In this document: one piece after another, positions 1,590-24,283 of the stretch
How positions within the stretch are numbered: position 1 is the first letter of the stretch
Layout: every line of letters starts with the position of its first letter
Virus record (IMG/VR): IMGVR_UViG_3300020125_000226
Span: 1-24,663 of that record
Reading direction: 5' to 3' (one strand)
Source of the DNA: a virus
Length of the DNA stretch: 24,663 nucleotides
The notes under the pieces: model-generated
The model's database searches: none
What the model saw: only the letters and a program-made list of their open reading frames with translations
What the model was told of the DNA's origin: nothing
Translations under genes and position numbers: made by a program

Positions 1590-1630
1590 ACCGACCCTCG
1601 ATGCTTTTGAGAAACCGACCCGCGATGCTT
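1590..1630. repeat. two imperfect 17-bp direct repeats
   Basis: ACCGACCCTCGATGCTT (1590-1606) and ACCGACCCGCGATGCTT (1614-1630) differ at one base, with a 24-bp period. They fill the gap between the tail tube stop and the chaperone start. The second copy runs into the last codons of the tube gene, so the gap may have arisen by a small duplication. Confidence 0.6.
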
Positions 1631-3587
1631 AGACAGGCATCGCGAGGTCCGGCAGATAGTCGAAGAACTCCATCAACATCGTGTGATCGAAGTTGCGGTC
1701 CGCGCCCATGGTCATGTTGATCGGCAACATGATCGGCTCGTTGATCTTCACGTCCAAGCCCTTCGTGTTCAGCGTGAGCAACGGCAAGTCAAACAGGATG
1801 CCCTGGTTGTTCTTGGCCATCGCAAATTCGATGGACACATCGGCGTTCGTGCGCACGGCCTGCACCGAGGCAACTTGGTCGAAGTAAGCCTGCACCGAGC
1901 CCGAACCCTCGAAGAAGCCGAAGGTGATCTCGAACGGGCCAAGCTTGCCAATCGCCTTGTTGGCCTTGTCGTTGTTCTTGACCGAGAACTTCAATTCGGT
2001 CACTTCCGCGAACAGCGAGGTCGGGGCCGAGTCAGTGTCACTCAGGACCGACATCTTCGCGCGGACAACGTGCGAGGTCGTATTGAACGCGTCTTCCGAA
2101 ACGATGGTCGGAGCCGTGGCGCCAATCGCTTCCGACAGGATGGTGCCGGTCGTGTCGATGGTCGTGTAGTCCGTTCCGAGGAACGTCATGTCGAGCGTGA
2201 CCTTTTCGGCCGTCGTCATGTTGAACGTGATCTCGTTCGGGACCGCGCCCATGATGTATTCGGCTTGCGGCTTCGTGGGGTTGTCGCTGTCGGGATTGCC
2301 GAGCGTGCGCTCCATGGTGTACGTGCGGCGCTTCTGAATGGCGGGCGTCGCTTCGTTGCGAAGCACCTTGCCGAAGAAGAACTGCACAGTCTTGCCAGCG
2401 CCGTTATCCGTGACCATCTCGCTCGAAGTCTTATCGAACGTCAGGCGATGCGTGACGATGGAGCGGATACGCGCCCAACCGTTGTTCGCAGCAGTCGCGA
2501 ACGCGCTGTTGGTAACGTCGCCGCCGATCCAAATCCACTGACCGGCAATGAGCGGCAGCGTGGTGAAGTCGAGAACCGTCGCGTCCATGTGCGGGAAGTT
2601 CACGCTGTCATTGGTGATCGTGAGATCGCCGGACGCGCCCTGACGGCCAACTTGCTCCAAGCGAGCAGCGGAAGTCGGGGTCTCGTCCACGACATTCGTG
2701 TCCGTGACAACAATGGTCGTCGCAGTCGCGTCCGAACCACCGGCAAGAGTCGTGGTCGTCCAGGCCGCATTCGCTGCGGTCTCGGTCGTGCCAACGCTAT
2801 TCTCGGAAGCACCGGCAACGCGCGCCGTAACAGTGATGGTGTGCGTGGCATCGTCCGTCGCGGAAACGTACGGGTTCTGAGCCGGGACGCTGTAGTCCGT
2901 TCCGGGGACGCCGCCAGATGCGTTGATCGCGTGATGGAGGTTCAACATCGACGCGGCTTCTGAACCGCCGACAAGAACTTCGTACGCGACGGCAACCGAG
3001 GCGCGGAAGGTGTACGTGAACCCGCCGATTGTGACGGTCTCACCGGCCGCATAGTTGGCCGAAGACACAAGCGTGTTGGTGGCCGCGACGGCAGCGGAAC
3101 CGCCCGACGTGGATGACACAACCTTCAGACCATTGTTCTGCGAATTGGCGAACTTGCTTGCGGAGAGCAAATCGTTGGCAGCGAGCGAACCGAACACATT
3201 GTTGTTCGTGACGGTGTACTCGTGCGAAGAATGCACGACCGATGCGATGGGCGTGGTGTTGTTGTTGAACGACTGGGAGTCTTCCGGCTCGCGAAGGTTC
3301 GCGACGAAGAAGCCCTGGAGCAAACGAGTGAGACCGTCCTGCGTCAAGTCGTTGGAGAAACCGGCGGCCGGGTCGAGGTCAGTCAACACACCCTTGCGCA
3401 ACTGACGCGAAGGGTTGATCGGCATGCGGGCGACAGTCTTGGTGTTCGCACCAAAATCGTTGTACGTGTTCGGCTCAAGAGGATACCAAATTTGGCTGGA
3501 GGCGACGGGCAGAACTCCGATGGTGGTCTCTTCCGCATAACGGAGGCCGGTGACGTTCGAGTCCAATTTCTTGACGAGGTTGGTCAT
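1629..3587 (-). CDS. major tail tube protein with inserted beta-rich module
   Basis: 652 residues from ATG 3587, with a good AGGAG eight bases upstream. The N-terminus (LRYAEETTIGVLP, then LTQDGLTRLLQGFF near 82-94) and the C-terminal half (MGAVPNEITFNMTT, VTLDMTFLGTDY, LTLNTKGLDV, PINMTMGADR) follow the pattern of siphovirus tube proteins. Those form stacked hexamer rings around the tape measure and carry the DNA. The gene sits between tail terminator and chaperone, as expected. It is roughly twice the length of a simple tube subunit. Part of the excess is a module at residues about 171-286 (TVTIGGFTYTF ... GGSEAASMLNLHHAIN ... PGTDY) that also occurs in two other virion genes here. It probably projects from the tube surface (inference). 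Confidence 0.8.
   Translation of the reverse strand: MTNLVKKLDSNVTGLRYAEETTIGVLPVASSQIWYPLEPNTYNDFGANTKTVARMPINPSRQLRKGVLTDLDPAAGFSNDLTQDGLTRLLQGFFVANLREPEDSQSFNNNTTPIASVVHSSHEYTVTNNNVFGSLAANDLLSASKFANSQNNGLKVVSSTSGGSAAVAATNTLVSSANYAAGETVTIGGFTYTFRASVAVAYEVLVGGSEAASMLNLHHAINASGGVPGTDYSVPAQNPYVSATDDATHTITVTARVAGASENSVGTTETAANAAWTTTTLAGGSDATATTIVVTDTNVVDETPTSAARLEQVGRQGASGDLTITNDSVNFPHMDATVLDFTTLPLIAGQWIWIGGDVTNSAFATAANNGWARIRSIVTHRLTFDKTSSEMVTDNGAGKTVQFFFGKVLRNEATPAIQKRRTYTMERTLGNPDSDNPTKPQAEYIMGAVPNEITFNMTTAEKVTLDMTFLGTDYTTIDTTGTILSEAIGATAPTIVSEDAFNTTSHVVRAKMSVLSDTDSAPTSLFAEVTELKFSVKNNDKANKAIGKLGPFEITFGFFEGSGSVQAYFDQVASVQAVRTNADVSIEFAMAKNNQGILFDLPLLTLNTKGLDVKINEPIMLPINMTMGADRNFDHTMLMEFFDYLPDLAMPV
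2730..3077 (-). repeat. shared virion module, copy in tail tube gene
   Basis: Codes for residues about 171-286 of the tube protein. Key shared positions: TVTIGGxxYTF, VGGSEAASMLNLHHAIN, GGVPGTDYSV, LAGGSD. The 16-mer ATCGACGCGGCTTCTG at 2947-2962 (plus strand) is identical in the copy at 7986-8001. Confidence 0.8.
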
Positions 3588-3600
3588 GCCAGTCTCCTAA

Positions 3601-4044
3601 TTACCGAATACGGTCGTACTCGAAATCCACATTCACGTTCACGAGGAACCAAGTACCGTCGTGGCCGAATTCAACGGGAGTGACATTTCGAAAGATCACC
3701 CCATCTGTGCCGCCGACGTTCTGGCCCTCAAAGATAGCCTGCACATTGTTGACCATGGTGTCTGAATCTGTCAACCCGCCACCGGTCGGCGAGCGGACTT
3801 CGATGGTCAGGGTGCCTTTGTCTCGGAAACGGCGGTTTCCGGGGGTGTTGATGGTCGCCTGAAAGCCAACCTTATGCTTCCACATGAAGCGGACCCACGA
3901 CTCGCTGTCCTTGGGGGTCGGCGCGTTGGTGTCCTGCCAAGCGATGAACGGCGCCGGAGGAGTGGACGTGTAAGCCGCTGTCCAGGCATCGTTGAAGTGC
4001 TTCTGAACTGCGTCGCGCATCGCGCCGATGTTTTGGAAGGGCAT
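3601..4044 (-). CDS. tail terminator protein
   Basis: 147 residues. Opening MPFQNIGAMRDAVQKHFNDA, then SWVRFMWKHKVGFQATI, NRRFRDKGTLTIEVRSPTG and a closing VNVNVDFEYDRIR. This is the arrangement of lambda gpU-like terminators and the related DUF4128 family: N-terminal helix, then beta strands with a charged loop. The protein caps the tail tube and provides the face that docks to the head. It follows the head closure gene by one base and precedes the tail tube gene, the canonical place. I did not see an obvious strong ribosome site, so translation may be coupled to the upstream gene. Confidence 0.7.
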   Translation of the reverse strand: MPFQNIGAMRDAVQKHFNDAWTAAYTSTPPAPFIAWQDTNAPTPKDSESWVRFMWKHKVGFQATINTPGNRRFRDKGTLTIEVRSPTGGGLTDSDTMVNNVQAIFEGQNVGGTDGVIFRNVTPVEFGHDGTWFLVNVNVDFEYDRIR

Positions 4045-4045
4045 C

Positions 4046-4441
4046 TTAGTGCTCCAGTTCTGCGGTGTAGAGCACGCGCAACGAACCCGGATTGATGACC
4101 TTCACACCATGGACGTGCCACGTGTAACCTTCATCGTCGATCATCGTGTCGATCAAGACGAGATCAGCAGCCGCGAACGGATTGCCGTTTCCGAACGTCG
4201 ATGCAGCGATGTACGCGGTGGCGTCACCACGACGCATCGCTTCCTTGTCGTCGATCTCGTCGTTCGGGATCACAACGGCAAAGGCCACGATGGTCAAAGC
4301 CTCATTGCCTGCACCGCCGCCGCGCCACGGTTTGGCATTATCGGCGGGCGTCTGAGTTTGCTGTTTGAACGTGACTTGCTTTCCGTTCTGAGAGATCAGG
4401 CGGTCAGCGGTCGCGGCGAGCTTGGGATAATTGAGAGCCAT
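4046..4441 (-). CDS. head closure / head-tail joining protein
   Basis: 131 residues from ATG 4441, one base after the TAA of the connector gene, so it is probably translationally coupled. An upstream ATG at 4540 would only extend into the preceding gene. Features typical of head closure proteins: a DRLISQNGKQVTFKQQ strand, KPWRGGG, a loop with EAMRRGDATAYIAAS, DLVLIDTMIDDEGYTWHVHGV, and a closing PGSLRVLYTAELEH. Such proteins form a ring under the connector that seals DNA in the head and gives the tail its docking site. The assignment rests on motif pattern and gene order. Confidence 0.65.
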   Translation of the reverse strand: MALNYPKLAATADRLISQNGKQVTFKQQTQTPADNAKPWRGGGAGNEALTIVAFAVVIPNDEIDDKEAMRRGDATAYIAASTFGNGNPFAAADLVLIDTMIDDEGYTWHVHGVKVINPGSLRVLYTAELEH

Positions 4442-4442
4442 G

Positions 4443-5471
4443 TTACGACCCTCGAACCATGCGTGTTCCCGAAGAAGCGTTGCGCAGGACCATCTCAAGC
4501 CAGAGATCGGCTTCAGGATATTCCGGCAGATAGAAATCATTCACGATGTTCGACTGCACTGAACGCGAAGTGTCCTTGTCGCGGATCGCGAGCGCCGAAT
4601 ATCCGTCGTACGTGGTCTGCTCTTCGAGCGGGCCGACCTTCTCGGTCTTGCTGCGAACCGGACCGACCACGAGATCGAGCGTCGGAGGATTGTTCGAATA
4701 GCCGGACAGGCTCGTGACGCCTGCACCCCAAGTGCCGTGCGAAGAGCCGAACGGCGCGTAGGCCACCGCGATGCTATTCGCATTCGCGTTCACGTCCGAG
4801 ACGACAAGCGTCGTCAGAGTGGCAACAGCAGTCACATTAGGATCGGACTGCGTGACGTGATAGTCGGTGTCCGGCGTGCCGCCGCCGTTATCGTTGATCG
4901 CGTTTGCGATGTTGAGCAGCGTCTCGGCAACCGTGCCGCCGAGCAGCACATGACCGTCCGTCAACGTGAGCACGGTCTGCATCGTGTACTTACGAGTGCC
5001 GATAGCAAGAACGTCTCCGTCTGCGAGATTTGCCGAAGGCGTAAACGTGGCCGTGCCCGCCGTGAGACCCGGCTGCGAGATCGAGAGGTCTTGCGTGGGG
5101 ACCGAGCGGATCGGGTCCGGCGCCAACACACCGAGGCGCGCGGCGCGGATCGCGTATTCTGCGCAAGCCCAACGGACTTGAAACGGCACGCCGGTCAAGA
5201 GGTAGCTATCGTTGTCGAACGCGCCGATGCGCGGCCAGCCGAGCGCCTGCTCGACTTGCTGACGAAGACCACGGAAGCGATTGCGGAGACGCTTCTCGAT
5301 ATACATGGTGGCGGAGATCGTGGCGCGGGCCTGCTCGTTCGCAGTGTAGTTCTCCCAATCGAGAACACCCTTGTTCGTGAGGTACGCGGTGATCGAGTCC
5401 AAGTCCCAATAGGCGTTCGAATCAACGCGGGCCGTTCCGTCTTCGACGATCATGAATGCGGGTGCGACCAT
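4443..5471 (-). CDS. head-tail connector (DnaT-like/adaptor family) with inserted module
   Basis: 342 residues. Residues 1-120 (MIVEDGTARVDSNAYWDLDS, YLTNKGVLDWENYT, RFRGLRQQVEQALGWPRIGA, VPFQVRWACAEYAIRAA) match phage proteins often annotated 'DnaT-like ssDNA-binding'. In tailed phages these are head completion adaptors that bind below the portal. The C-terminal KTEKVGPLEEQTTYDGYS ... LPEYPEADLWLEMVL belongs to the same family. Between the two parts, residues about 138-257 carry the module also found in the tail tube protein and in the gene at 7430-8413, making the protein much longer than usual. ATG 5471 has GGAG about nine bases upstream; Met7 is an alternative without a good site. Confidence 0.7.
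   Translation of the reverse strand: MVAPAFMIVEDGTARVDSNAYWDLDSITAYLTNKGVLDWENYTANEQARATISATMYIEKRLRNRFRGLRQQVEQALGWPRIGAFDNDSYLLTGVPFQVRWACAEYAIRAARLGVLAPDPIRSVPTQDLSISQPGLTAGTATFTPSANLADGDVLAIGTRKYTMQTVLTLTDGHVLLGGTVAETLLNIANAINDNGGGTPDTDYHVTQSDPNVTAVATLTTLVVSDVNANANSIAVAYAPFGSSHGTWGAGVTSLSGYSNNPPTLDLVVGPVRSKTEKVGPLEEQTTYDGYSALAIRDKDTSRSVQSNIVNDFYLPEYPEADLWLEMVLRNASSGTRMVRGS
4701..5060 (-). repeat. shared virion module, copy in connector gene
   Basis: Codes for residues about 138-257: DVLAIGTRKYTMQ, VLLGGTVAETLLNIANAIND, GGTPDTDYHV, DPNVTAVATL, and WGAGVTSLSG at the end. It is the most diverged of the three copies. Confidence 0.75.
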
Positions 5472-5500
5472 GGGGCTCTGCTCCGTTTGCTCAAAAGCAT

Positions 5501-5538
5501 AACCCCCGCGATCCCGTTTGACCAGGACCGCAGGGGTT
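5501..5538 (-). terminator. hairpin upstream of connector gene, possible attenuator
   Basis: On the minus strand AACCCC-T-GCG-GTCC pairs with GGAT-CGC-G-GGGGTT (one mismatch, one G-U), with a ten-base loop. The stem is followed by ATGCTTTTG. It lies in the 93-bp gap between the stop at 5565 and the connector start. The weak T-tract makes it a partial terminator or attenuator at best. Confidence 0.45.
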
Positions 5539-5564
5539 GAAGCGCAACAGGCTGAAACTCAGGC

Positions 5565-5927
5565 TTAGACCGGAGTGTACTTCGTGTGATCGACATAAAC
5601 CGGCGCGACGGCAGGCTCAGGGATCACATAGGCGTCGCCTGCGACCGAACCATTGCCCGACGCCGGAACACCGGCAGAGGCAGACACGGCAACCGCCGTA
5701 TCGAAATAGGTCGCGGGGAAGAGCACCGAACCGGCGTCGAAGAATTCCTTCTCCGTGTCATCCGTCTGCGGGAACTCATTTGCGAACGCGGCGTTGCATG
5801 CGAGAGCGGCGTTGGTCTTTGCATTCGAGGCGCTGGACGCGTTCACGAGGCAAGCGACAACACCGTTAATCAGGCGCGCGCCCAACTGGGGCTGCGAGAC
5901 GGAGACGAGGAATGTAAACTGGGCCAT
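5565..5927 (-). CDS. unknown virion-region protein
   Basis: 120 residues, not recognised. It opens MAQFTFLVSVSQPQLGARL and is rich in Ala, Ser and Val. It ends with PVYVDHTKYTPV after a Gly/Ala/Val-rich stretch, and shows no membrane segment or catalytic motif. A strong AGGAG lies eight bases before the ATG, and a promoter-like site lies about 30 bp further upstream. Position between capsid and connector suggests a head decoration or head-tail joining protein, but that is only context. Confidence 0.8.
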   Translation of the reverse strand: MAQFTFLVSVSQPQLGARLINGVVACLVNASSASNAKTNAALACNAAFANEFPQTDDTEKEFFDAGSVLFPATYFDTAVAVSASAGVPASGNGSVAGDAYVIPEPAVAPVYVDHTKYTPV

Positions 5928-5954
5928 TGGTGGTACTCCTGTTGGGCGACGTGG

Positions 5955-5983
5955 ATTGTGGGGCTACGGGGAACGCTTGTCAA
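5955..5983 (-). promoter_or_regulatory. promoter-like site, TTGACA-N17-CACAAT
   Basis: TTGACA (5983-5978) overlaps the TGA stop of the upstream small gene. A 17-base spacer leads to CACAAT (5960-5955), four of six to the sigma-70 -10. A start here would give a short leader before the gene at 5927. Confidence 0.4.
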
Positions 5984-6159
5984 CTCTGCTTGGACTGACC
6001 GGTTTCGGACAGCATAATCGCGATGGCTTGCTTGCGGTCCTTCACGACCGGGCCGTTCTTCTTGCCCGAATGCAGATGGCCGCCCTTGAATTCGTGCATG
6101 ACGAATTTGGCGTTTGCGCGCTTTCCCGCTTTCGTGGAATTGGAGGCTGGCAGAGGCAT
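5980..6159 (-). CDS. small DUF6496-like phage protein, 59 residues
   Basis: Reads MPLPASNSTKAGKRANAKFV at the start, then VMHEFKGGHLHSG, KNGPVVKDRKQAIAIMLSE and a short basic tail. The pattern (V)MxEFKxGxLxSGxxxxVxxRKQAIAIxLSE is that of the small DUF6496 family, common in phage and bacterial genomes and of unknown function. The ATG overlaps the preceding stop as TAATG, so it is translated in the same operon. At 59 codons it is easy to miss with a 60-codon cutoff. The many Lys/Arg/His residues would allow nucleic acid or acidic-protein binding (inference). Confidence 0.85.
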   Translation of the reverse strand: MPLPASNSTKAGKRANAKFVMHEFKGGHLHSGKKNGPVVKDRKQAIAIMLSETGQSKQS

Positions 6160-6467
6160 TAGTCCATGCTCCGCTGACCGCGAGGATTGCCGAGACCGGC
6201 CGGAGGAATTTGGGCCGTGGCTGAGTCAATCGGGCGAGTGAAACGATCTTGGCCCGTACCGGGCTGCGTCGCGCCAACGGTCGATCCCAATTTCTTGAGA
6301 CGCTGCGCGCCCCAGTTGTTCGCGAGAATCTTGCCGGTGCTCGGCATCGGTTCGTTGCCGCGACCGCTTGCTGAAGCCGGAGCACCATGACCGGTCATAA
6401 GCGGCTCGGAGTTCGTGCCGTGGCCGTCGTGCTTCCGGGGGTCGATACGATTCTTGATCGCGGCCAT
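6159..6467 (-). CDS. unknown basic, disordered-looking protein
   Basis: 102 residues from ATG 6467, five bases after the upstream TAA; a start ten codons earlier would overlap the previous gene. It begins MAAIKNRIDPRKHDGHGTNS and is rich in Gly, Pro, Ser, Asn and Arg, so it looks mostly unstructured. A central KILANNWGAQRLKKLGSTVG may form a helix. No family is recognised. It sits in a run of small genes between capsid and connector that are probably co-transcribed. Confidence 0.7.
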   Translation of the reverse strand: MAAIKNRIDPRKHDGHGTNSEPLMTGHGAPASASGRGNEPMPSTGKILANNWGAQRLKKLGSTVGATQPGTGQDRFTRPIDSATAQIPPAGLGNPRGQRSMD

Positions 6468-6472
6468 GACGC

Positions 6473-6709
6473 TTACATCTTCTCGGCGTTGTCGCAATCG
6501 TTGCCGACCATGTACGTGCGGTCGTTACGATTTGCTTTGCACTTCACGTTCTCCGTGACCGCGACGTTCTTCGGAACGCTCGGAACCGGATCGCGCTGAT
6601 TGAGTTGGCGGTCCATCAAGAGCGGCGTCTTGCCGTGCGAGGTCTGGAACATGCCGCGCGACACAGGCTGCTCGGAAGGCTTGTTGTCCGGGGTATACAT
6701 CTTGGCCAT
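6473..6709 (-). CDS. unknown small protein
   Basis: 78 residues from ATG 6709, preferred because GGAG lies seven bases upstream; a TTG five codons earlier is less likely. It starts MAKMYTPDNKPSEQPVSRGM and ends with NDRTYMVGNDCDNAEKM. It has two Cys, no membrane segment and no recognised motif. It is spaced tightly with its downstream neighbour (five bases), so the two are probably translated together. Confidence 0.7.
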   Translation of the reverse strand: MAKMYTPDNKPSEQPVSRGMFQTSHGKTPLLMDRQLNQRDPVPSVPKNVAVTENVKCKANRNDRTYMVGNDCDNAEKM

Positions 6710-6754
6710 CGGGATGCTCCACAAAATTCGGGTTTAGGCGATCAGCCTACACCC

Positions 6755-7402
6755 TCAAAACTGGGGCTGCAAGTCCTCGGCCTGACGCTTGTCGAAACCG
6801 GGGCACGCGGCCGAAATCATCTCGCGTGTGACAGACTGGTCCTGCACAGCCAGAGCCACGTAATCGACTGAAGGCAAACCGTCTTCGGTCCACTGCTCCG
6901 GCACGGTCGGATCGAGCTTTTGCACCGCCGTTTGAATGGCGTGCATTAGGGCGATGGATTGCTGTTGCGGGTCGGGTTCCACTCTTTCGCCCACCCCGGC
7001 GTCCGCGTGTCCAGCCCCACCGGAAACCAACCCCTCACTCCCGGACGGATTTGCATCATCTGCGCTGCCGTGTAGTGCTCGTGGATCGGGAACCGACCCG
7101 GACGCAGTTCCGCCAGCACTTTGTATTGCTGCTGGTGCCCCGTCAGTCGGCGCGGAATCTTCTTGAAGATGATGCTGAATGCCATTTTTCTCGTCTCTCT
7201 CGATAGCCGCCGCCAAAGCGTGCGACCCACGCGGATAAGCATGATACGAACGGGCCATGAGTGTCAAGAAGGCGTCGAAGCTTTCCGGGTACACATAGAC
7301 TTTGCAAACGCCCTTCACGAACGAATGCTTGTTGAGCAGAACTGTTTGACCGGCGCGACCGCCCGTCAGAACCATCTCGATTGTTTGGCCACGTTGCAAC
7401 AT
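6755..7402 (-). CDS. unknown virion-region protein with Pro/Gly-rich middle
   Basis: 215 residues. ATG 7402 has GGGAGGG just upstream. Residues 1-65 (GQTIEMVLTGGRAGQTVLLN, VYVYPESFDAFLTLMAR) look like a compact beta-alpha domain. Residues about 80-140 are low complexity (Gly, Ser, Pro, Asp). The C-terminal 60 carry a helix, then EQWTEDGLPSVDYVAL and VTREMISAACPGFDKRQA. The C-terminal pattern (W, DGxPxV, then a helix) resembles short segments in several phage head-region proteins, but I cannot name a family. It is a probable virion-associated or assembly protein by position only. Confidence 0.8.
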   Translation of the reverse strand: MLQRGQTIEMVLTGGRAGQTVLLNKHSFVKGVCKVYVYPESFDAFLTLMARSYHAYPRGSHALAAAIERDEKNGIQHHLQEDSAPTDGAPAAIQSAGGTASGSVPDPRALHGSADDANPSGSEGLVSGGAGHADAGVGERVEPDPQQQSIALMHAIQTAVQKLDPTVPEQWTEDGLPSVDYVALAVQDQSVTREMISAACPGFDKRQAEDLQPQF

Positions 7403-7429
7403 TAGACCCTCCCAGGACTGTTGAACTTG

Positions 7430-8413
7430 TTACTGCAAAACGCGCGCCTGCACCACCAGTTTAGGAACGCCGTATGTGTCGGCAGCGAGAATGACTGTGA
7501 GCGCAGCACCCGCGATGCCACCGTCCGTGATCGTGCTGACGAAGCCGGGCACACTCTGGCCAGCCTTCGTCGCAACACCAGTCGGAGAAACGGGATTGAG
7601 TTGCGGAGGCACAACTTCGACATGAACCTTGTGATCGCCGATGTTGTCGGCAATCGTGGAAATCGTCAGCGTGTGCGTGCTGTTGTCGAACGATGCGTGC
7701 AGCGCGGGCAGGAGCGCGGCAACCATGAGTTCGGCCAACGAGGACACCTTGTTCTCGCTATCCACTCCACCGGTCAATGTGGCCGAGCCCCACGCGCCGT
7801 TGCCGGTCGTCATGGATGCTGTGGTCGCAACCGCATTCGCGGTGGCTGCATTGAGCGTGGAGCGCGCGGTGACTGTCGCGGTGTGGGAAGCCGCCACTGC
7901 GGTGACGTTCGGATCGGGTGCCGTGACCACGTAGTCGGTCCCAGGCGTGCCGCCCGAACCGTTGATCGCATGAACGAGATTGAGAATCGACGCGGCTTCT
8001 GTGCCGCCGATCTTCACGTCGCCGTCCACGGCCGGGCTGGCGACGAAGCTGTAAACGCGAGTGCCGATGGTGACGGTATCACTTGTGCCATAGTTAGAGC
8101 TTGATGTCAGCACGCCGGACGCGAGCACAACGCGCTCGATCTGGTTGGCGTTCGTGACCGTGATGTCGAGATAGCTGGAATCGTCGCTCGGATTGAAGAC
8201 TGCAACGCGCAGGCTCCAGCCGGACATATCCGCCGCTTCGGCGAGCGTTGCCGGTGTGACATTCGCCCAAACCTTGCGGCTGGCAAAATTTTGCACGAAA
8301 GCTTTTGCGTCTGCGCTGGACTCAGCCACGACCACGAAAGTATCAGGGCCGTCCGAAGGTGCGGGCGACGTGTCGGGATCGGGCAATTGGAGGAGGTACG
8401 GAGTTGCGGTCAT
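7430..8413 (-). CDS. head-region structural protein with inserted module
   Basis: 327 residues from ATG 8413, which has GGAG six bases upstream; a TTG five codons earlier lies in poorer context. Residues 1-98 (MTATPYLLQLPDPDTSPAPS, DTFVVVAESSADAKAFV, SGWSLRVAVF) and 220-327 (SSLAELMVAALLPALHASFD, HTLTISTIADNIGDHKVHV) look like one domain seen after the capsid gene in many siphoviruses, probably a minor head protein. Residues about 100-219 are the shared module also present in the tube and connector proteins. A hairpin separates it from the capsid gene, so it is likely made in smaller amounts. Confidence 0.7.
   Translation of the reverse strand: MTATPYLLQLPDPDTSPAPSDGPDTFVVVAESSADAKAFVQNFASRKVWANVTPATLAEAADMSGWSLRVAVFNPSDDSSYLDITVTNANQIERVVLASGVLTSSSNYGTSDTVTIGTRVYSFVASPAVDGDVKIGGTEAASILNLVHAINGSGGTPGTDYVVTAPDPNVTAVAASHTATVTARSTLNAATANAVATTASMTTGNGAWGSATLTGGVDSENKVSSLAELMVAALLPALHASFDNSTHTLTISTIADNIGDHKVHVEVVPPQLNPVSPTGVATKAGQSVPGFVSTITDGGIAGAALTVILAADTYGVPKLVVQARVLQ
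7757..8116 (-). repeat. shared virion module, copy in head-region gene
   Basis: Codes for residues about 100-219: TVTIGTRVYSF, KIGGTEAASILNLVHAING, GGTPGTDYVV, DPNVTAVAASHTATVTA, WGSATLTGGVD. It is close to the tail-tube copy in both protein and DNA (identical 16-mer at 7986-8001). Confidence 0.8.
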
Positions 8414-8449
8414 GGCTGACTCCAGCAAGGAGGCAAGGAAAACCCAGAA

Positions 8450-8486
8450 ACGAAGAGGGGGAGCTTTTTGGGCTCCCCCGTTTCGT
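8450..8486 (-). terminator. strong hairpin just after the capsid gene
   Basis: On the minus strand ACGAA-AC-GGGGGAGC, a seven-base loop (CCAAAAA), GCTCCCCC-TC-TTCGT. That is eight G/C-rich pairs plus five more beyond a small internal loop, followed by TTCTGGGTTTTCC. It begins six bases after the capsid stop. Likely role: partial termination and 3'-end protection of capsid mRNA. Confidence 0.65.
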
Positions 8487-8491
8487 GGGTC

Positions 8492-9469
8492 TTAGTTCTT
8501 GATGCCCGGCGCGATGGCCAAACCCTTCTCGCTGAACAGAGCGAGACCGGTGTACCACTTGATGCGCCAGATGCGAACGTCCTGACGTTCCGACTCGCCG
8601 ACATCGACGATGTGGATACCAGCGGCTTCGCTGGCGGTCAGACCGGCAACGCCGTGCTGGCGTGAGCCGTCGTCGAACGTACCGGCGAAGATCGTGGTCG
8701 CCACGTGGTACGACGCGTCCGGGGTGTCCTGGTTCAGCGGAATCCAGTCATTACGGAAGATCGGAATGCCGAGGTAGACGGGAACCGTCGCACCGGAAGG
8801 CAGTTCCATCACTTCCGTGATGTGGGCGCCGCCGAGCGCACGAAGCAGCGCCTTGAAGCTGCGGATCGTGCGGGCATGCATCGCGAGGTAATCGACTTCG
8901 CCGTCCTTATCGACCACGAGGTCGGTCAGGTTGTCGATGATGTCGAACGAGAGGTTGGAACCAGCCGAGCCGGTATCAACTTCTTGGTTGGCCGAGGCCA
9001 GCGCGAGCAGGCCGGGGAACGTCGCGTTCGTGCCGTCGCCGTTGATGAAGAGGTCTTGCCACTTGCGGCCAGCCGCCTTCGCCTTCGACGCGATCTGGAT
9101 CGCAGTCTGGTCGTTGCCGTCGCCGGAACGAGTTGCCTGGATCAGACCGTTGACTTCCGCGTCACCGATGATCGTGGTGAGCGAGGAGGTCAGATGGGTG
9201 AACGTCGCCGGGTCTTTCGCGGCTTCGCGTTCCGTCTGGTTGACACCGCCCGTCGCGAATGCGCCGAGTGTGCCGTCCGTGTCGCCAACGCCAACGGTCG
9301 CAACCGGGCCAAGCGAATTCTCGCGGTTGTACGCGAGGGCGTTACCCTCGATCCCGTCGAACGGAATCTTTTCGTACATGCGATTGACGGTGATGATGTT
9401 CTCGATCACGCCTGCGACAAGCTCGTCCTGAGCCAGCTTGGCGGATTCCGTGAGGGTAACTGAGGTCAT
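8492..9469 (-). CDS. major capsid protein (HK97-fold)
   Basis: 325 residues from ATG 9469, with GGAGAAAG just upstream; more upstream in-frame codons lie in the leader. It begins MTSVTLTESAKLAQDELVAG and continues with VIENIITVNRMYEKIPF and GNALAYNRENSLG. Later come KWQDLFINGD, DYLAMHARTIRSFKALLRAL (spine helix region), PVYLGIPIFRNDWIP and a closing GLALFSEKGLAIAPGI. This is the pattern of the HK97-fold capsid proteins that pair with DUF4055-type portals. No N-terminal delta domain is obvious, consistent with the separate scaffold gene upstream. It has its own promoter-like site and a hairpin after its stop. Confidence 0.9.
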   Translation of the reverse strand: MTSVTLTESAKLAQDELVAGVIENIITVNRMYEKIPFDGIEGNALAYNRENSLGPVATVGVGDTDGTLGAFATGGVNQTEREAAKDPATFTHLTSSLTTIIGDAEVNGLIQATRSGDGNDQTAIQIASKAKAAGRKWQDLFINGDGTNATFPGLLALASANQEVDTGSAGSNLSFDIIDNLTDLVVDKDGEVDYLAMHARTIRSFKALLRALGGAHITEVMELPSGATVPVYLGIPIFRNDWIPLNQDTPDASYHVATTIFAGTFDDGSRQHGVAGLTASEAAGIHIVDVGESERQDVRIWRIKWYTGLALFSEKGLAIAPGIKN

Positions 9470-9635
9470 GGTCTTTCTCCTGGTTGATCCAAAAAACTTT
9501 TCAACGACACCGGCCAGAGGCTCCCAGTTGGGACTTCTTGCGCGATCTCGGCGGATCACCCGTCGAAGAATCGACCCGCTCTTTCATCCCTCACCATCAC
9601 GGTGAATGAACTACGGAGCACCGAAATTCGAGATC

Positions 9636-9664
9636 ATGATGGGGGCAAGGAAAACTCCTGTCAA
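9636..9664 (-). promoter_or_regulatory. promoter-like site, TTGACA-N17-CATCAT
   Basis: TTGACA (9664-9659), 17 bases, then CATCAT (9641-9636), four of six to the -10. It lies in the 218-bp gap between scaffold stop and capsid start, the longest gap inside the head block, which holds no gene. The long leader also contains a small TCACC/GGTGA hairpin at 9591-9605. Confidence 0.4.
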
Positions 9665-9687
9665 CCCCGCCCCCTAGCATGATCCTT

Positions 9688-10518
9688 TTACTTCTGACGG
9701 CCCAGTCCGTGCTCGACTTGGCCCTTCGTCAAACCGGCCGCGATTTTCTGGGTCGGGGTCATCTTGTCCCGATCCGTAACCGTGCGAGTTTGCGAGTTAT
9801 TTTTCTGCTGCTGCGCACCGCCGCCGCCCTTGGTTTCGCTTTCAAAAGCGCGGGCATACGTCGTGTTCAGCTTCATCTCGGCGACGAGACCTTCGATGTC
9901 AAGGAAGCCGCCCTTTCCGTCCGTGCGAACGTCGCCGGTTTTCGGATCAACGACGCGGACCACGTAGTCCTCGCCGTCCTGCACGACCTTAACTTGGCTG
10001 CGAACGATGGGGAGCAGAAGATCGACCGACCCCTTGGCCTTCGCGAGTGCCGCGTTGGCTTGCTGGCCGACGAGATACTTCTCCAGCGACTTCGACATGA
10101 CGCTGATCTTGCCATCGGCGAGGTCCGTCAGTTCTTTCGCTTTCTTCTCGAAGTCCTTGCGGATCGCGTCCATGTTGACTTTGAGTTCGCCACCGTTCTT
10201 CGCTTTGAGAACGAGATCGTCGATGTGGGCTTTCAACGCTTCCTTCGCGTCCTTGCCGTCTTCGACTGTGATGCCCTGCGCGGTCATCAACTCTTCGAAC
10301 GCCTGAAGCACGCCGCGACGATCCGCAGCTTCTTTCTGGGCCTTCTTCATGTTGAAGTCCGTACGACCGAGCGTTTCATTCAAACCGGTGATCGCAGTCG
10401 CGAACGGCTTGAACTCCGGCTTGAGTGTGAACTTGCCGTCTGCACCGGCCGCATACGCGGGGCGATACTCTTCGGCAACGCCGTCGAGCGAATCGACGGT
10501 CTCTGCAAATTTGGTCAT
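9688..10518 (-). CDS. capsid scaffolding protein
   Basis: 276 residues from ATG 10518, with GGAAAGAG upstream; a GTG eight codons earlier lacks a good site. It begins MTKFAETVDSLDGVAEEYRP, then a predicted long helical, charged middle (residues about 50-160, Lys/Glu/Asp/Ala-rich). It ends with a Gly/Gln-rich linker (GGGGAQQQKNN) and a basic helix. This is the composition of phage scaffolding proteins, which fill the procapsid and leave during maturation. The segment VDLLLPIVRSQVKV and the following DYVVRVVDPKTGDVRTDGK are also usual in such proteins. Position directly before the capsid gene supports it. No protease motif is seen in it. Confidence 0.8.
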   Translation of the reverse strand: MTKFAETVDSLDGVAEEYRPAYAAGADGKFTLKPEFKPFATAITGLNETLGRTDFNMKKAQKEAADRRGVLQAFEELMTAQGITVEDGKDAKEALKAHIDDLVLKAKNGGELKVNMDAIRKDFEKKAKELTDLADGKISVMSKSLEKYLVGQQANAALAKAKGSVDLLLPIVRSQVKVVQDGEDYVVRVVDPKTGDVRTDGKGGFLDIEGLVAEMKLNTTYARAFESETKGGGGAQQQKNNSQTRTVTDRDKMTPTQKIAAGLTKGQVEHGLGRQK

Positions 10519-12050: not shown

Positions 12051-13778
12051 TTACGATCCGATAAGCTTTGCTTTGCCCTTGACCGGGTGATTGATGTCCA
12101 CCGGCACTTTCTTTTTCTTCACGCCCTTCGGCGACGTGCCGGGTTTCGATTTTGCTGCGGGCTTCGAAGTTGACGGAGCTTTTGCCGGTGTATTGCCGCC
12201 AGCAGGATTGTCCGTATTGTCGTCGCCACCGCCCGGAACGTCGTTGAGAATATCCGTGGCGGTGCTGTCGTCTGCGTTGTTGACGGTCTCGACCGAACGA
12301 ATCTGCTCGCTCGCCGTGACGAAGCTCGGCTTGACGATAAGGTTCGTGGCTTCCCACTCGATCTGATCCATCTCTTCCTCGGTGTCGAGGTCGGCGGCCA
12401 GAACTTCGAGGCGCTTCATTTCTTCCAGCCAAGTCCAACGCGAGATGTCGCCGCGCTTGCGGGCTTCCGTCAGCGTGTTGATCGCGGCGGTGTTCGCGTC
12501 TTCCTCGGTGAAGTCGGTGTTGATAAGGCACGTGCCGCCGTCAGACTTGTTGATCCAGTCGGCGGTGATCTTGAGCGCCTGATTGACCGAGACCATGAAG
12601 CGCAGGCTCATGTCCTTCAGCGGCGAGATCGCTTCGCTGGAGTCCAACGCGCGCTCGGTCGCCGTACGGCCACCGATCTTGCGGCGCAGGAATTCGGCGC
12701 CCCACGAGGCCATCTTGTCTTCGAGCTTTTCGAGATCGGTTTCACCGGCACCAATCGCCTTGCCCGTGTGCTCGACGTAATAGAACTTGCCGTTCGCGTC
12801 GCGCGTGGCAAGCAACTGACGCGGACCGATGGCCATGTTCTCTTGCGAACCCTGCACCATCTGCGCGCCGGAAACCGCGAGCATCGGGAAACGCGCCACG
12901 GTCAGAATGTTGATTTGGTCCGATGTGGACTGCCAGTGACGCACGTTCAGATGCGCGAGGTCTTCCAGCGGCGGCTTCGATGTCATGAAGCCGGAGCGGT
13001 TCGCGTAGAACGTCACCAGCGGAATGTAGTCGAGATCGGACAAGCCCTCTTCGATCTTCACCCAAATCGGGTCTTTCTGCTCGTCGGTTTTGCGAAGCTC
13101 CCAAAGCTCCCAACGGCCGGGTTCGAGAATGCGGATGCGCTGCTTCGTGACTTCCCTGAAGCCGTCCATCACGGTTTCGACTTCCGCGATGCGAACGTGC
13201 TGAAGAACTTCGACGCCGTTCTTCACGATGGCGTACGCGAAGAGCATGTTCTCCGGGCGAATGAGCGTCCAGTACGGACGGCGATTTTCTTTGAGATCGT
13301 CTTCGAGCGTGCGCGTCGCCTTCTCGGCCGGGTCGAGTTTCGGCATGTCGATCAGGATGTGCGAGAAACCTTTTGCGATGGCGTCACGAAGCCACTCGCG
13401 TGCGAAGCTCGTCAGGCTCGCGCCTTGGAGGTCGATGTTTTTCCAGTAGCCGGTGTCTTCGTTCGCGATCTCTTCCGGCACATCGGAGTTCAGCTTGATC
13501 GGCTCAACGAACGGCTTGCCGACAAGACTGTCGAGCGTCAACTCGAACATATTGAACAGCGTATTGCGGTTCAAACGCTCGTTGTAATTCTCGTTGCTTT
13601 CTTCCGCGTGCTGCGGGAGGTACGTGCGCTCCGCCATGCGCATCGCATCGGTGCCGCCCATGAGCGTGATAATCATCGCCCACTTGGATTCCATTTCGAG
13701 ATACGCAAGCGACTTCACCGACGGATCGGGCTGTTCGGCGGCGGCTGCTTTCGCTGAAGGCTTGACGTTCTTGGCCAT
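12051..13778 (-). CDS. portal protein (DUF4055 family)
   Basis: 575 residues from ATG 13778, preceded by AAGGGG eight bases upstream; an upstream in-frame start lacks a site. Residues about 20-110 (DPSVKSLAYLEMESKWAMII, GGTDAMRMAERTYLPQH, NENYNERLNRNTLFNMFE, LDSLVGKPF) are diagnostic of DUF4055 portal proteins. The middle has LRDAIAKGFSHILIDMPKL, RPYWTLIRPENML and DIPLVTFYANR-like wing strands, and ERALDSSEAISPLKDMSLRF contributes to the long crown helix. The C-terminal 80 are Asp/Gly/Pro/Lys-rich and probably disordered. The dodecameric portal forms the DNA gate at one capsid vertex and docks TerL during packaging. Confidence 0.9.
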   Translation of the reverse strand: MAKNVKPSAKAAAAEQPDPSVKSLAYLEMESKWAMIITLMGGTDAMRMAERTYLPQHAEESNENYNERLNRNTLFNMFELTLDSLVGKPFVEPIKLNSDVPEEIANEDTGYWKNIDLQGASLTSFAREWLRDAIAKGFSHILIDMPKLDPAEKATRTLEDDLKENRRPYWTLIRPENMLFAYAIVKNGVEVLQHVRIAEVETVMDGFREVTKQRIRILEPGRWELWELRKTDEQKDPIWVKIEEGLSDLDYIPLVTFYANRSGFMTSKPPLEDLAHLNVRHWQSTSDQINILTVARFPMLAVSGAQMVQGSQENMAIGPRQLLATRDANGKFYYVEHTGKAIGAGETDLEKLEDKMASWGAEFLRRKIGGRTATERALDSSEAISPLKDMSLRFMVSVNQALKITADWINKSDGGTCLINTDFTEEDANTAAINTLTEARKRGDISRWTWLEEMKRLEVLAADLDTEEEMDQIEWEATNLIVKPSFVTASEQIRSVETVNNADDSTATDILNDVPGGGDDNTDNPAGGNTPAKAPSTSKPAAKSKPGTSPKGVKKKKVPVDINHPVKGKAKLIGS

Positions 13779-13803
13779 TTCCGACCCCTTGGGGAGAGCG
13801 GCC

Positions 13804-13832
13804 AGGGTAGGTCGATGGCCGAATTCTGTCAA
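13804..13832 (-). promoter_or_regulatory. promoter-like site, TTGACA-N17-TACCCT
   Basis: TTGACA (13832-13827), 17 bases, then TACCCT (13809-13804), three of six. It lies in the 61-bp gap before the portal gene. The perfect -35 and the spacing are the argument; the -10 is weak. Confidence 0.35.
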
Positions 13833-13839
13833 TCAGAGG

Positions 13840-14400
13840 CTAGATCACCTTGCCGGTCGCGCCCGAATTGCCGTAGACCGGGATGAAGTACCCCCGCGCA
13901 CTGGCGTCGATCCAGCGGGCTTTGACCATATTGCCGCTTCCGCGAGCCTTCGAAGCCGCGTGAATCGCGTTGTGCCGACCGTAGTCGTGACAGACGAGCT
14001 TGCCCTTGTAGAGACCCCAATTGTCGCGCTTCAAGTCGCTGTCGAGAACATTCGGTATCATCTTCGGCAACTTGAAATCCCACGGCACCTTCTTAGTGCG
14101 TTTCTGGATCAGCACGATGCCGTTTGGCGAGATCGAAACGCACGGCGCCAACCAACCGGCTGTCGATGTGCCAGCGTGCGCATGCTGCTTCCACAAATCC
14201 CATTCATGGATATTCTGGAACGAGCCCGCACTTTCTTCGAACTTGAGCACGAGCGACTTGTCCGTCGCGTGCTCGAACACGATTCGGCCGATCCCGAAGC
14301 CTAGTGGCTTGCCACAGAGCATGTCGAACGTATCTCGCGTCACAGAGTCGCGAAAATGGTCCTTCATGAACTCACCGAAGTAACTGAACTCACGTTCCAT
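13840..14400 (-). CDS. small kinase-like protein between TerL and portal
   Basis: 186 residues from ATG 14400, which overlaps the TerL stop as TGATG and has GGAGGG seven bases upstream; an ATG 12 codons earlier lies inside TerL. Several protein-kinase-like signatures occur in order. They are a glycine-rich GFGIGRIVFEH (34-44), a beta-3 lysine in SLVLKFE (K53), E66, a hinge-like GIVLIQKRT, a catalytic-loop-like CHDYGRHN (D139, N144, spacing of five as in HxDxxxxN), and WIDAS (D165) where DFG would be. The protein is much shorter than a full kinase domain. I recognise the general phage protein type but know no function. It may phosphorylate a head or host protein, or be a pseudokinase (inference). 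Confidence 0.45.
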   Translation of the reverse strand: MEREFSYFGEFMKDHFRDSVTRDTFDMLCGKPLGFGIGRIVFEHATDKSLVLKFEESAGSFQNIHEWDLWKQHAHAGTSTAGWLAPCVSISPNGIVLIQKRTKKVPWDFKLPKMIPNVLDSDLKRDNWGLYKGKLVCHDYGRHNAIHAASKARGSGNMVKARWIDASARGYFIPVYGNSGATGKVI

Positions 14401-15977
14401 CAAAAATCCCTCCGTGCCATTCCCATGAACTCCCAAGTCAGTCTATACCGCGTCGAGTCCGCCGGATGGTCCTCGTACGTCTTCGGAATGTCATCCGGGT
14501 CATCGAGAGCGCGCGGCATCGTCGGAACGAGTTCAAGCCAGTGCTTGTTGCGAACGCAGACAAAAATTCCGGGTTTTTCACGCGTGCCGTCGAAATTCGG
14601 GATCGAGCCCGCGACGCGCTCGCGCAAAAGCGTCCATCCGCGTTTTCTCGACCCGTGCGACTTATCGGCTTGATCCCAGAACACTTGCTTGTCCTGAAAG
14701 TCGTCAATTGGCGCGCGACCGGTTCCTTGGTTCGATTTTGACCAAAGTTCGGTGTCGGCGGGTCCGCCGAGCACGCGCGCCGAAATTCCGTTGTCGCGTT
14801 CGCGATCTTTGACGCCTTGCGCGATTTTCGCGGTGGACATACGCAATCCGGTGTCTTCTTGACCGTTTGTGCCGTACCACTCCATGAAGAGGAGCAAATC
14901 GCCGCGAATTTGTCCGATCCAGCGTCCATCGGGCAATCTGATCGGCTCGCCGTTGCTTTCGGCCCACCACAACACCGAAAACGGTTTTGCTTGGCCATGG
15001 TCATACGAACGACTGAATTTCCAACTCGCGGGAATCTGTTTTGACACCAAATTCGGAATGACGTGAACATTCGCGCGCCAGAGGTCGTCGATCATGCCGC
15101 CTTCGGTGACATCCCAGTTTCCGGTCGCCCACGCGTCGGCTTGTGCCTTCGAGAGCGCGGCGGAGCGCACGACTTGCGCGTAGTTCGGCATTTCGTGCAG
15201 TAGGACGAAATTTTCCTTGAGTGACGACTGAATTGCGACGCGCGGAGCTTCGCCGGGCTCGCGAATGATCTTGCCGAACATTCCGGGCAACTGAAAACGC
15301 TTTTTCACGACGTTGTGGCCTGGGCCGGACGGATTTGTGTTCACGCGGATGCGAACAGGCACGCCGGGGCCAGTTGGACGGCAACACGAGAACATGAGCT
15401 TGTACGCTTTGAGATCACCCCACTGCGTAAGCTCTTCCCAACCAATCCACGGATATTGATGGCCGTGGTATTCCTTGTACTCGGTTTCGTCGAGCATGTG
15501 ACGGAAAAGAAGCTGCTCGCCGCTCGGCCAGCACGCCGCGTAGTCCGCTTTCGAAAGTTTGAAGTGAAATCCGGGAAAAATCGGTTTGAAAAGCGTCTCG
15601 GTCTTGCGAACCATCTCGTCGAGGTCGCCGAGTTGCTGCCGGAAGAGAATTCCACGCCAATTCGAGCCGAAGCCCTTGCCGACATCCTTCGCGAAATCCA
15701 TCAAGAGCATTTCGGACTTGCCGGTGCCGCGCGGACCCGCGTACATCGTCTCGAAGACCGGCGAAGTGAGAAATTGGTACTGCGAACCCGGCAACGGCAT
15801 CCAATCGGGCCATTGCTTGATCGTTTGACCGTCGAGTTCGGTGATGAATGGTCTCCAGATGCCGCGAGGGCTCTGTTCTTCGAGCACCAACCACCAAACT
15901 GCGATCCCTTCACCCCATCGGCCGACTAGCCGACGATCAAGGACTTCCCAGTCTTCGTATTGGCGCTCTTCGCGCAT
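14400..15977 (-). CDS. terL: terminase large subunit
   Basis: 525 residues. Walker A GPRGTGKS lies at 81-88, a Walker B-like YPWIGWEE at 175-182 with the catalytic Glu pair, and the coupling motif NTNPSG at 213-218. The nuclease part has SYDHG (D326), LLLFMEWYG (E366) and LGGPADTELW (D408), the acidic residues expected of an RNase H-like nuclease. Length and order fit a headful or cos-type motor. It pumps DNA through the portal and cuts concatemers. ATG 15977 follows the previous TGA directly and has AAAGG eight bases upstream. The start of the downstream gene overlaps its stop. Confidence 0.93.
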   Translation of the reverse strand: MREERQYEDWEVLDRRLVGRWGEGIAVWWLVLEEQSPRGIWRPFITELDGQTIKQWPDWMPLPGSQYQFLTSPVFETMYAGPRGTGKSEMLLMDFAKDVGKGFGSNWRGILFRQQLGDLDEMVRKTETLFKPIFPGFHFKLSKADYAACWPSGEQLLFRHMLDETEYKEYHGHQYPWIGWEELTQWGDLKAYKLMFSCCRPTGPGVPVRIRVNTNPSGPGHNVVKKRFQLPGMFGKIIREPGEAPRVAIQSSLKENFVLLHEMPNYAQVVRSAALSKAQADAWATGNWDVTEGGMIDDLWRANVHVIPNLVSKQIPASWKFSRSYDHGQAKPFSVLWWAESNGEPIRLPDGRWIGQIRGDLLLFMEWYGTNGQEDTGLRMSTAKIAQGVKDRERDNGISARVLGGPADTELWSKSNQGTGRAPIDDFQDKQVFWDQADKSHGSRKRGWTLLRERVAGSIPNFDGTREKPGIFVCVRNKHWLELVPTMPRALDDPDDIPKTYEDHPADSTRYRLTWEFMGMARRDF

Positions 15978-17622: not shown

Positions 17623-17698
17623 TGGCTGAAGCGGATGGGTTCGAACCACCGACCATCGGATTAACAATCCGGCGCTCTACCAACTGAGCTACGCTCCA
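17623..17698 (-). tRNA. tRNA-Asn (anticodon GTT)
   Basis: 76 bases including encoded CCA. Acceptor TGGAGCG pairs with CGCTTCA (one G-U), and D-stem GCTC/GAGC with loop AGTTGGTA. The anticodon arm reads CGGA-TTGTTAA-TCCG with GTT at 34-36. T-arm GGTGG-TTCGAAC-CCATC. All conserved loop bases are present. It would read AAC/AAU codons and probably supplements the host pool for late expression. Confidence 0.93.
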
Positions 17699-17702
17699 AA
17701 AA

Positions 17703-17783
17703 TGGTTGCGGAGGATGGACTCGAACCACCGACCTTCGGCGTATGAAACCGACGAGCTACGCTTCCCGCTGCTATACTCCGCA
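17703..17783 (-). tRNA. tRNA-Met (anticodon CAT) with enlarged D-loop
   Basis: 81 bases including CCA, four bases upstream of tRNA-Asn. Acceptor TGCGGAG/CTCCGCA, T-arm GGTGG-TTCGAGT-CCATC, anticodon stem TCGGT/GCCGA with loop TTCATAC. The segment TAGCTCGTCGG...CCGAAGGTC is close to bacterial initiator tRNA, but the first pair is T-A rather than mismatched and the anticodon stem lacks three G-C pairs. The D-loop is about 13 bases, four longer than E. coli tRNA-fMet. It could also carry a modified CAT (Ile-AUA), which sequence alone cannot settle. Confidence 0.88.
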
Positions 17784-21822: not shown

Positions 21823-21851
21823 ACAATGCGCTCGCGGCCGAAAGCCGTCAA
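21823..21851 (-). promoter_or_regulatory. promoter-like site, TTGACG-N17-CATTGT
   Basis: TTGACG (21851-21846) overlaps the TGA stop of the fibre gene. After 17 bases comes CATTGT (21828-21823). It would start the lysis-like pair. Confidence 0.4.
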
Positions 21852-23170
21852 ATCTCGGTTGCTGTGATGCTCACGCCCGCGATGCCGACGAGCGACGCGC
21901 CGGTCACTGACTTCGCGGCCAAGTCGATCCAGTGCGCGACGTTGAGCGAGAGCCCGGTTACGACAGCCTGAATCGAGAACGGCACATGCACGTCGGCCGC
22001 AGTGACAGCGACCGGGTTCGTATATTCCTGCGCGGTGCCGACTTGCGTGCCGGTGAGCGCCGCCGCATTCACGGGCGCCGTGCCGGTGCCGTGCGAAATC
22101 TGGTAGAGAATTCCTTCGTTGATCGTGCCGCTCGAAGAGATCAGATAGCCGGAGATCGTGATAAGCACGCGGCCACTCGCGACCGGCGTGATCGAGCCAG
22201 CCAATCCTTGCATCGCGAAAACGGAAGTGCTCGCGGGCGCGGTCTTGTTCGCAGGCGACGATTGAGAAACTGCGCCAGCAGAACCGGCCGGACCAGTTGG
22301 TCCCGTTGCACCAGTCGCGCCGGTCGGACCCGTTGCACCTTGCGGCCCCTGAATTCCTTGCGGGCCTTGAGCGCCGGTCGCACCAGTTGATCCAGTCGCG
22401 CCCGTTGCACCGGGATCACCTTGATCGCCCTTCACACCTTGCGGACCAGTCGGCCCCGTCGCTCCAGTTGCTCCCGCAGTTCCTTGCGCGCCGGTTGCAC
22501 CGGTCGATCCTGTGTCGCCCTTCGCACCTTGCGGACCCGCAGGACCAGTTGGTCCCGTCGCGCCTGTTGCACCGGGCGCACCATCGACACCGTTCGTTCC
22601 CGCTGCGCCGGTATCACCCTTGTCGCCCTTCGGACCTTGAGCACCAGTTGCACCTTGCGGTCCCGTCGCGCCTGTTGCACCGGGCGCACCATCGACGCCG
22701 TTCGTTCCATTCGCTCCGGCCGGACCAGTTGGACCGATGTCACCGGTATCGCCTTTGTCGCCCTTCGCACCTTGCGCACCGGTTGCTCCCGCAGGACCAG
22801 TTGCACCGGTCGCTCCAGGCGCACCATCAATTCCATTCGTACCGTTCGTTCCCGCGTCGCCCTTCGGACCTTGTGGTCCGGCTGGACCAGTCGCACCGAC
22901 TGCGCCATCGGCGCCGTTCACTCCGGGGTTGCCTTGCGGACCAGTTGGTCCCGTCGATCCGTCGTCGCCCTTCACGCCGCGATCACCAGCCGGACCTTGC
23001 GCGCCGGTATCACCCTTGTCGCCTTTCGGTCCTTGCGGTCCTTCGGGGCCATTCAAGTTTCCGTTCACGCGGTCGTGCCATCGCTGAATCGCGGAAAGAT
23101 ATTTCGCGACCGATGCCATCACTGGCGTGGTCTCGTCGAGATCGAGAAATTGTTCGAGATCGTCTGCCAT
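21848..23170 (-). CDS. collagen-like fibre protein
   Basis: 440 residues from ATG 23170; the ribosome site is weak, and an upstream GTG at 23230 would add 20 residues. Residues 1-40 ([20 protein letters not shown], then [15 protein letters not shown]) form a short helical head. Residues 41-301 are about 87 uninterrupted Gly-X-Y triplets, rich in GAT, GPQ, GPT, GDK and GDT, which form a bacterial-type collagen triple helix without hydroxyproline. Residues 302-440 are a beta-rich C-terminal domain ([20 protein letters not shown] ... [17 protein letters not shown]), probably the trimerising or receptor-binding tip. In phages such proteins are head fibres or tail fibres. Codon repeats make the DNA prone to recombination and length change. 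Confidence 0.85.
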
Positions 23171-23198
23171 TCGGGTAGGCGCCTTCGTTCGGAGTTCC

Positions 23199-23227
23199 AC
23201 CGTGCAGCCGGAAGTGTCGATTGTCAA
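23199..23227 (-). promoter_or_regulatory. promoter-like site before the fibre gene, TTGACA-N17-CACGGT
   Basis: TTGACA (23227-23222), 17 bases, CACGGT (23204-23199). The -35 is perfect and the -10 poor (two of six). It is the first such site of the leftward block, just downstream of the paired dyads, which suggests regulated late transcription. Confidence 0.35.
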
Positions 23228-23253
23228 CACTCATTGCCGGAACGTGTCCGAAC

Positions 23254-23489: not shown

Positions 23490-23564
23490 TTTTCGGCGAA
23501 TTGTGGGAGGGAGGGGCGCCCCACCCCCCGTCGATCTTAACCGGTTTCGACATTTCTGACGCAA

Positions 23565-24204: not shown

Positions 24205-24283
24205 AGCTGAGCTTATAGGCGTTCCCTGTAAGTCTCACAGACGGCCTAAGCTGAGCTTATAGGCGTTCCCTGTAAGTCTCACA
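24205..24283. repeat. 35-bp direct repeat, two copies, with palindromic core
   Basis: Identical 35-bp units at 24205-24239 and 24249-24283 (44-bp period). Each starts AGCTGAGCTTATAGGCGTTC and ends with CCCTGTAAGTCTCACA. In the second copy the preceding bases make TAAGCTGAGCTTA, a 13-bp palindrome around a central G. Confidence 0.85.

Follow-up and report, generated by a model that had tools for sequence, protein, structure and literature searches.

A promiscuous, putatively adhesive surface-insert domain in head, neck and tail tube proteins of a siphophage

Why should a head protein, a neck protein and a tail tube protein that are unrelated to one another carry the same stretch of about 120 residues? 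The question is raised by a 24,663-base IMG/VR virus record (IMGVR_UViG_3300020125_000226; the whole of this stretch is called the window below), in which a sequence-only reading had picked out one module in three virion proteins and suggested that it had been moved within the phage. The explanation favoured here, with somewhat better than even confidence in it as a whole, takes the module for a surface-insert domain, promiscuous and folding independently, that likely serves weak multivalent adhesion.

The module occupies residues 101-224 of a head-region virion protein (7757-8128, minus strand), residues 138-258 of the head-tail adaptor Ad1, or connector (4698-5060, minus strand), where it lies between QDLSISQP and PPTLDLVVGPVRSK, and, as an insert, residues 161-286 of the major tail tube protein (2730-3107, minus strand). 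Pairwise comparison by BLASTP bears out the common identity, with 51% identity over 125 residues between the tube and head copies (E=5e-27), 48% over 83 residues between the connector and head copies (E=1e-15) and 40% over 100 residues between the tube and connector copies (E=7e-11), and the positions first given for the module in three minus-strand open reading frames (ORFs) were right to within a few codons. A search of the full record finds exactly three copies, as many as in two larger contigs (41,980 and 82,527 bases) that apparently belong to the same virus. The motifs originally quoted for the module each occur in two of the three copies but not always in all three, GGTEAAS/GGSEAAS being confined to the head and tube copies and DPNVTAVA to the head and connector copies. 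The hosts are indeed unrelated. The head-region protein (7430-8428, minus strand; 332 residues) matches phrog_15312, ‘virion structural protein’ (E=1.9e-12), and is a homologue of YuA gp57, whose annotation is phage particle protein and which comes straight after the major head protein; its gene adjoins the major capsid gene, and the gene order matches that of YuA. Ad1 (4443-5471, minus strand; 342 residues) matches DnaT_2 (PF20557, E=1.7e-19) and phrog_477 (E=3.4e-27), and the tube protein (1629-3587, minus strand; 652 residues) matches Phage_tube_2 (PF18906, E=4.7e-20) and phrog_290.

Because module-free relatives exist for all three hosts, comparison of sequences identifies the module as an insert in each of them. 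In the tube, YuA gp66 aligns on both sides of residues 161-286 and is contiguous there, the junction reading NNGLKNVAS/STATTVVVT in YuA gp66 and NNGLKVVSS/module/ATATTIVVT in the window, and the tube domain in which the module is nested does not itself occur in 8xan, the minimal solved tube. The insertion site in Ad1 is mapped from sequence only, the structure models covering the head and tube proteins, and the Ad1 family has no solved sequence relative at E<=1; the site is empty in the closest relative, locus L007 (57% identical; comparison loci carry L numbers here), as well as in L030, L031 and L033. Head proteins without the module are found in L048, L032, L033 and YuA; because simple pairwise alignment with the YuA and Sphaerotilus SN1 proteins did not yield one large gap, the head junction rests on L033 and L048. 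All three genes occur in module-free form on the single contig of L048.

Structure prediction, which had been put forward as a check on whether the module folds by itself, describes it as an independent domain. In the AlphaFold2 model of the head protein, the predicted local distance difference test (pLDDT) score ranges from 91 to 98 for most of residues 101-222 and drops to 86 in a single block, whereas the host outside the module is poorly modelled at about 45-55, a contrast to which the depth of module rows in the alignment contributes; mixed alignments of module-only rows and empty-site hosts were misaligned and were kept out of folding. A separate AlphaFold2 model of the tube protein gives the same fold at residues 166-285, set on a two-barrel tube that resembles solved tubes (8xan, Z 27.6 over 300 residues; P74-26, Z 26.2; T5, Z 22.4). 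The predicted fold includes a central helix of 13 residues. In the PDB, Foldseek gave no significant match for the head model, and a second-look aligner placed add-on domains of contractile sheaths at the top (cyanophage A-1(L), Z 10.4; PhiTE, 9.1; Mu, 8.2), with T7-type tail proteins at Z of about 8-10. The tube model matches the sheath add-on domains at Z 10.7 (A-1(L)) and 8.2, and the sheath matches overall span Z 7.8-10.7 with a root-mean-square deviation of 2.1-2.8 Å over about 90-100 residues. Flagellin FliC D2/D3 and FliD follow below the sheath and T7-type matches, with Z of about 6-7 and an overall range of 4-7; these are weak on their own, because by the aligner's own caution a Z under 8 may reflect a common arrangement. 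A single-sequence search returned no solved relative of the module, and its sole profile match among solved structures, to a designed repeat protein, was rejected as spurious. Membership of an immunoglobulin (Ig) family was likewise rejected, with no match of any copy to an Ig family at E<=10 (Pfam Ig/Big). As to the fold, antibody chains reach Z of only 2.7-2.8 at the module region, where sheath-type matches fill the list.

The likeness to sheath domains may have a counterpart in sequence. Aligned with nine Mu-like sheaths, HHalign picks the sheath add-on domain, at residues 102-183 or 102-208, with scores of 32-34 against at most 15.8 in 40 column-shuffled profiles, although the probability is only 34-78% and identity to the Mu sheath is about 22-24%. 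The link to sheaths and flagellins is backed by sequence because family members lie in an annotated tail sheath protein (L087) and in two flagellins, L052 (7110-9341) and L054 (7041-9008), each with three tandem modules between Flagellin_N and Flagellin_C; two further flagellin-like ORFs with the module, L142 and L145, were recognised from their ends. In sequence terms, the module family and the insert of some bacterial flagellins are one and the same family. The flagellin carriers are Acidobacteria-type genomes, and a module match at E<=1e-6 occurs in 4 of 150 genomes drawn from their order. The window hosts show no Phage_sheath_1 (PF04984) match and no Flagellin_N/Flagellin_C setting, all three being phage proteins. 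It might be supposed that the module is a general surface tile swapped between phage virions and bacterial flagella, an idea to which we give little credence; if it were true, phages bearing the module on head, neck, tube and tail tip would resemble the outer face of the flagellar filament, and adhesion or camouflage would be a property of the whole particle, not of the tail tip.

Beyond the window, iterated profile searches, whose counts refer to fetched loci, place the module in 104 distinct ORFs. Scans of 86 of these name as hosts 12-13 tail tubes, three baseplate hub proteins, three Ad1 proteins, three phrog_15312 head proteins, two DUF2460 distal tail proteins, two flagellins, one sheath and one head-closure protein Hc3; other proteins with the module include collagen-like fibre proteins and proteins that match Laminin_G (lectin-like), Mtd_N or glycoside hydrolases, and some carry tandem copies, up to about eight in L097. 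The earlier remark that three hosts in one genome are less usual proved too modest, since in the phage of L130 (an 84.5-kilobase record) six copies are spread over five virion proteins, namely the head protein, Ad1, the tube (two copies), a DUF2460 distal tail protein and the hub. In Ad1 the module sits at three different sites: the C-terminal region in the window, residues 77-202 in L043 and residues 45-163 in L130. Sequence comparison demonstrates repeated gain of the module at loops of virion proteins. At about the site of L043, the Ad1 of L041 (9926-11140) has, in place of the module, an insert homologous to a tail-tube domain (E=3e-50 against tube profile 78-285), a second kind of domain common to neck and tube. 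Locus L007 encodes two adjacent head-protein paralogues (7090-9177) with one module each, and these two modules share only 52% identity. The tail tube of the cultured Xanthomonas phage DoCa5 (L001, 11704-13011) has a diverged module (34% identity), apparently without the nested tube domain. Pfam and NCBIfam have no entry for the family, phrog_28344 matches weakly, and no published description of it was found in the open-access literature.

How the three window copies came to lie in one genome was addressed with a tree of 28 modules, in which the groups were chosen after the identities had been seen, so that its p-values are somewhat optimistic. The head copy groups with the L007 head and L109 tube modules (support 100/100), and this group is joined next by the window tube copy (95/83); the connector copy falls elsewhere. 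A single clade for the three window copies is rejected (approximately unbiased, AU, test, p=0.001), which tells against spread of all three within the genome, and a topology that unites the two tube copies while leaving out the head copies is disfavoured (p=0.012). The suggestion that the module moved within the phage therefore stands for the head-tube link, where the relative L109 carries a head-type module at the tube site (78% identical), but not for all three copies; judged from the tree, the connector copy has another source than the head and tube copies. The two copies do share an identical stretch of 16 bases, CAGAAGCCGCGTCGAT, at 2947-2962 in the tube copy and 7986-8001 in the head copy (both minus strand), which had been taken as a sign of recent exchange. 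A run of at least 16 identical bases arises in 1.8% of pairs simulated from codon usage alone and adds little, synonymous sites are saturated among the window copies, and codons for shared residues agree between head and tube at 33 of 66 positions where codon usage predicts 28, so recent exchange is not upheld. Because codon agreement is about at the codon-usage expectation, any head/tube exchange is old; these comparisons support sharing or exchange of modules between head and tube genes, though not recently. In L130, four ORFs between the neck and tube genes (7738-8286, 8663-9220, 9642-10292 and 12698-13333) have, by eye, the look of GIY-YIG homing endonucleases (YRITSPSGKSYIGVT... motifs), and these might favour local recombination.

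On this reading the module entered surface loops of the three hosts by separate insertions that left the host cores intact, and the assembled virion should display it on the head, round the neck ring and along the tail, the tube bearing three copies per ring. From the host folds and the location of related domains we infer that it faces outward in the assembled virion; in the tube it should lie outside because three such domains per ring would not fit into the lumen alongside the DNA. Domain III of the Mu sheath, assumed here to be equivalent to the fold match at gpL residues 97-215, reaches outward and is the divergent part (PMC11915804), and sheath add-on domains sit away from the tube (PMC9230969). 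Weak multivalent adhesion to host-envelope or environmental glycans or proteins would add avidity before the receptor-binding proteins engage. Adhesion is proposed because the 936 lactococcal phages set a precedent, with carbohydrate-binding domains that sit at neck, tube extension and Dit and bind host cells (PMC6669499). Taken by itself, an adhesive function is an evenly balanced call.

Several points weigh against such a role and against the kinship on which it draws. The positions well conserved across 114 module copies (Y24, F26, N48, A52, Y64 and G115) look like core and turn residues, and no obvious conserved binding patch was seen among them. We know of no binding activity for any member of the family, and identity with a known carbohydrate-binding module was rejected, the best match being CBM_5_12 at E=0.54, below the cut-off. 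Homology to the sheath is weak by sequence, given the HHalign probabilities quoted above, and with Mu gpL by itself HHalign finds no match to the module; the occurrence in flagellins would also suit a generic filler or shield.

Shielding or stabilisation is accordingly named as the main rival to adhesion: the module would be a bulk coat, a stabiliser or a cover against proteases and competing binders, with no specific ligand, a minority view but one to be taken seriously. The module is rich in Thr, Ala and Gly and low in charge (T 17%, A 16%, G 12%, K+R 3%), as would befit such a coat, it takes flagellin and sheath add-on positions at which the sequence varies, and sheath add-on domains have been proposed as virion stabilisers besides adhesins (PMC9230969). 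The same module nevertheless turns up at sites of host contact and not on bulk surface only, namely in collagen-like fibres, in the proteins that match Laminin_G (lectin-like), Mtd_N or glycoside hydrolases, and in distal tail proteins and hubs. A neutral hitch-hiker, spreading since its insertion is tolerated and causes little harm, and serving no selected function, would account for the varied hosts and sites, for copies down to 39% identity and for the many close relatives that manage without the module, but selective retention is indicated by its presence in five virion genes of the L130 phage, at least three independent sites in Ad1, the L097-type tandem arrays and the core positions conserved in 114 copies, and we consider this explanation improbable. 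That the segments are integral to three different folds and alike by chance or convergence is scarcely credible, being contradicted by BLAST E values down to 5e-27, by empty-site relatives of all three hosts and by the agreement of two separate models on one high-confidence fold, even if one stretch of the head host is somewhat module-like (V.V.G....T...IA..M..ALN; HHalign p=0.008, probability 5%).

The virus is a siphophage whose nearest annotated relatives are YuA-like phages (Mesyanzhinovviridae). Its virion genes lie on the minus strand of the window, where terminase, portal and capsid are succeeded by the head protein and Ad1, and these by head closure, tail terminator, tail tube and chaperone. 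Besides the three hosts, this series comprises the terminase large subunit (14400-15977; phrog_979, E=5e-21), the portal protein (12051-13832; phrog_145, E=3e-116), the major capsid protein (8492-9559; phrog_212, E=1e-65), the head closure protein Hc1 (4046-4540; phrog_161, E=1.9e-10), the tail terminator (3601-4044; phrog_179, E=2.2e-18; PF13554) and the tail assembly chaperone (1130-1576; phrog_313, E=1.7e-25). A collagen-like Gly-X-Y repeat protein of 460 residues (21848-23230, minus strand) is probably a tail fibre. ARAGORN calls a tRNA-Asn at 17623-17698, and the adjoining bases 17699-17760, 76% similar to it, resemble a second tRNA that ARAGORN leaves uncalled (anticodon CAT by eye). An iteron-like repeat array with a spacing of about 63 bases (ATTAACCATCTAAGT...TTAATGGTTAATTGGTTAAC) lies at 23564-23777, and a direct repeat of 38 bases, 97% identical and 44 bases from start to start, at 24202-24283.

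Most descriptions of accessory surface domains in phages concern the tail tip, fibres or Ig-like add-ons. With the module on head, neck ring and tube, in five proteins of the L130 phage and at three sites in Ad1, adhesion by the whole particle becomes a testable idea; siphophage surfaces are linked to the contractile-sheath add-on domain and to flagellin inserts, and the module marks loops of head, neck and tube that tolerate a domain of 120 residues. The add-on domain of contractile sheaths (Mu gpL about 97-215, A-1(L), PhiTE and Milano) has the same fold and the same order of conserved elements, but the window module is found in unrelated loops of non-contractile head, neck and tube proteins. 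Flagellin FliC D2/D3 and the FliD cap have a similar fold, and family members are tandem inserts in flagellins; unlike the window module, the flagellin version belongs to a bacterial filament and has three copies in a row, and the similarity of fold is middling. Phage Ig-like domains (T4 Hoc, the tail-tube Ig domains), which have been proposed to bind glycans, are likewise accessory surface domains, found promiscuously in proteins of head and tail, whereas the module lacks an Ig-family match, has a predicted central helix and finds its best matches among sheath domains. The decorations of the 936 siphophages are alike in that one kind of accessory domain is borne by several parts of the virion, spanning the neck (neck passage structure), the tail-tube extension and an evolved Dit and conferring avidity (PMC6669499); theirs is a different domain, for which binding has been seen, and the window has its neck copy inside the adaptor ring protein and a further copy in a head protein. 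Accessory surface domains common to several virion parts are already known; the present case differs in the family itself, in its use by a head protein, the adaptor ring and the tube within a single virion, and in a link that reaches to the inserts of sheaths and flagellins.

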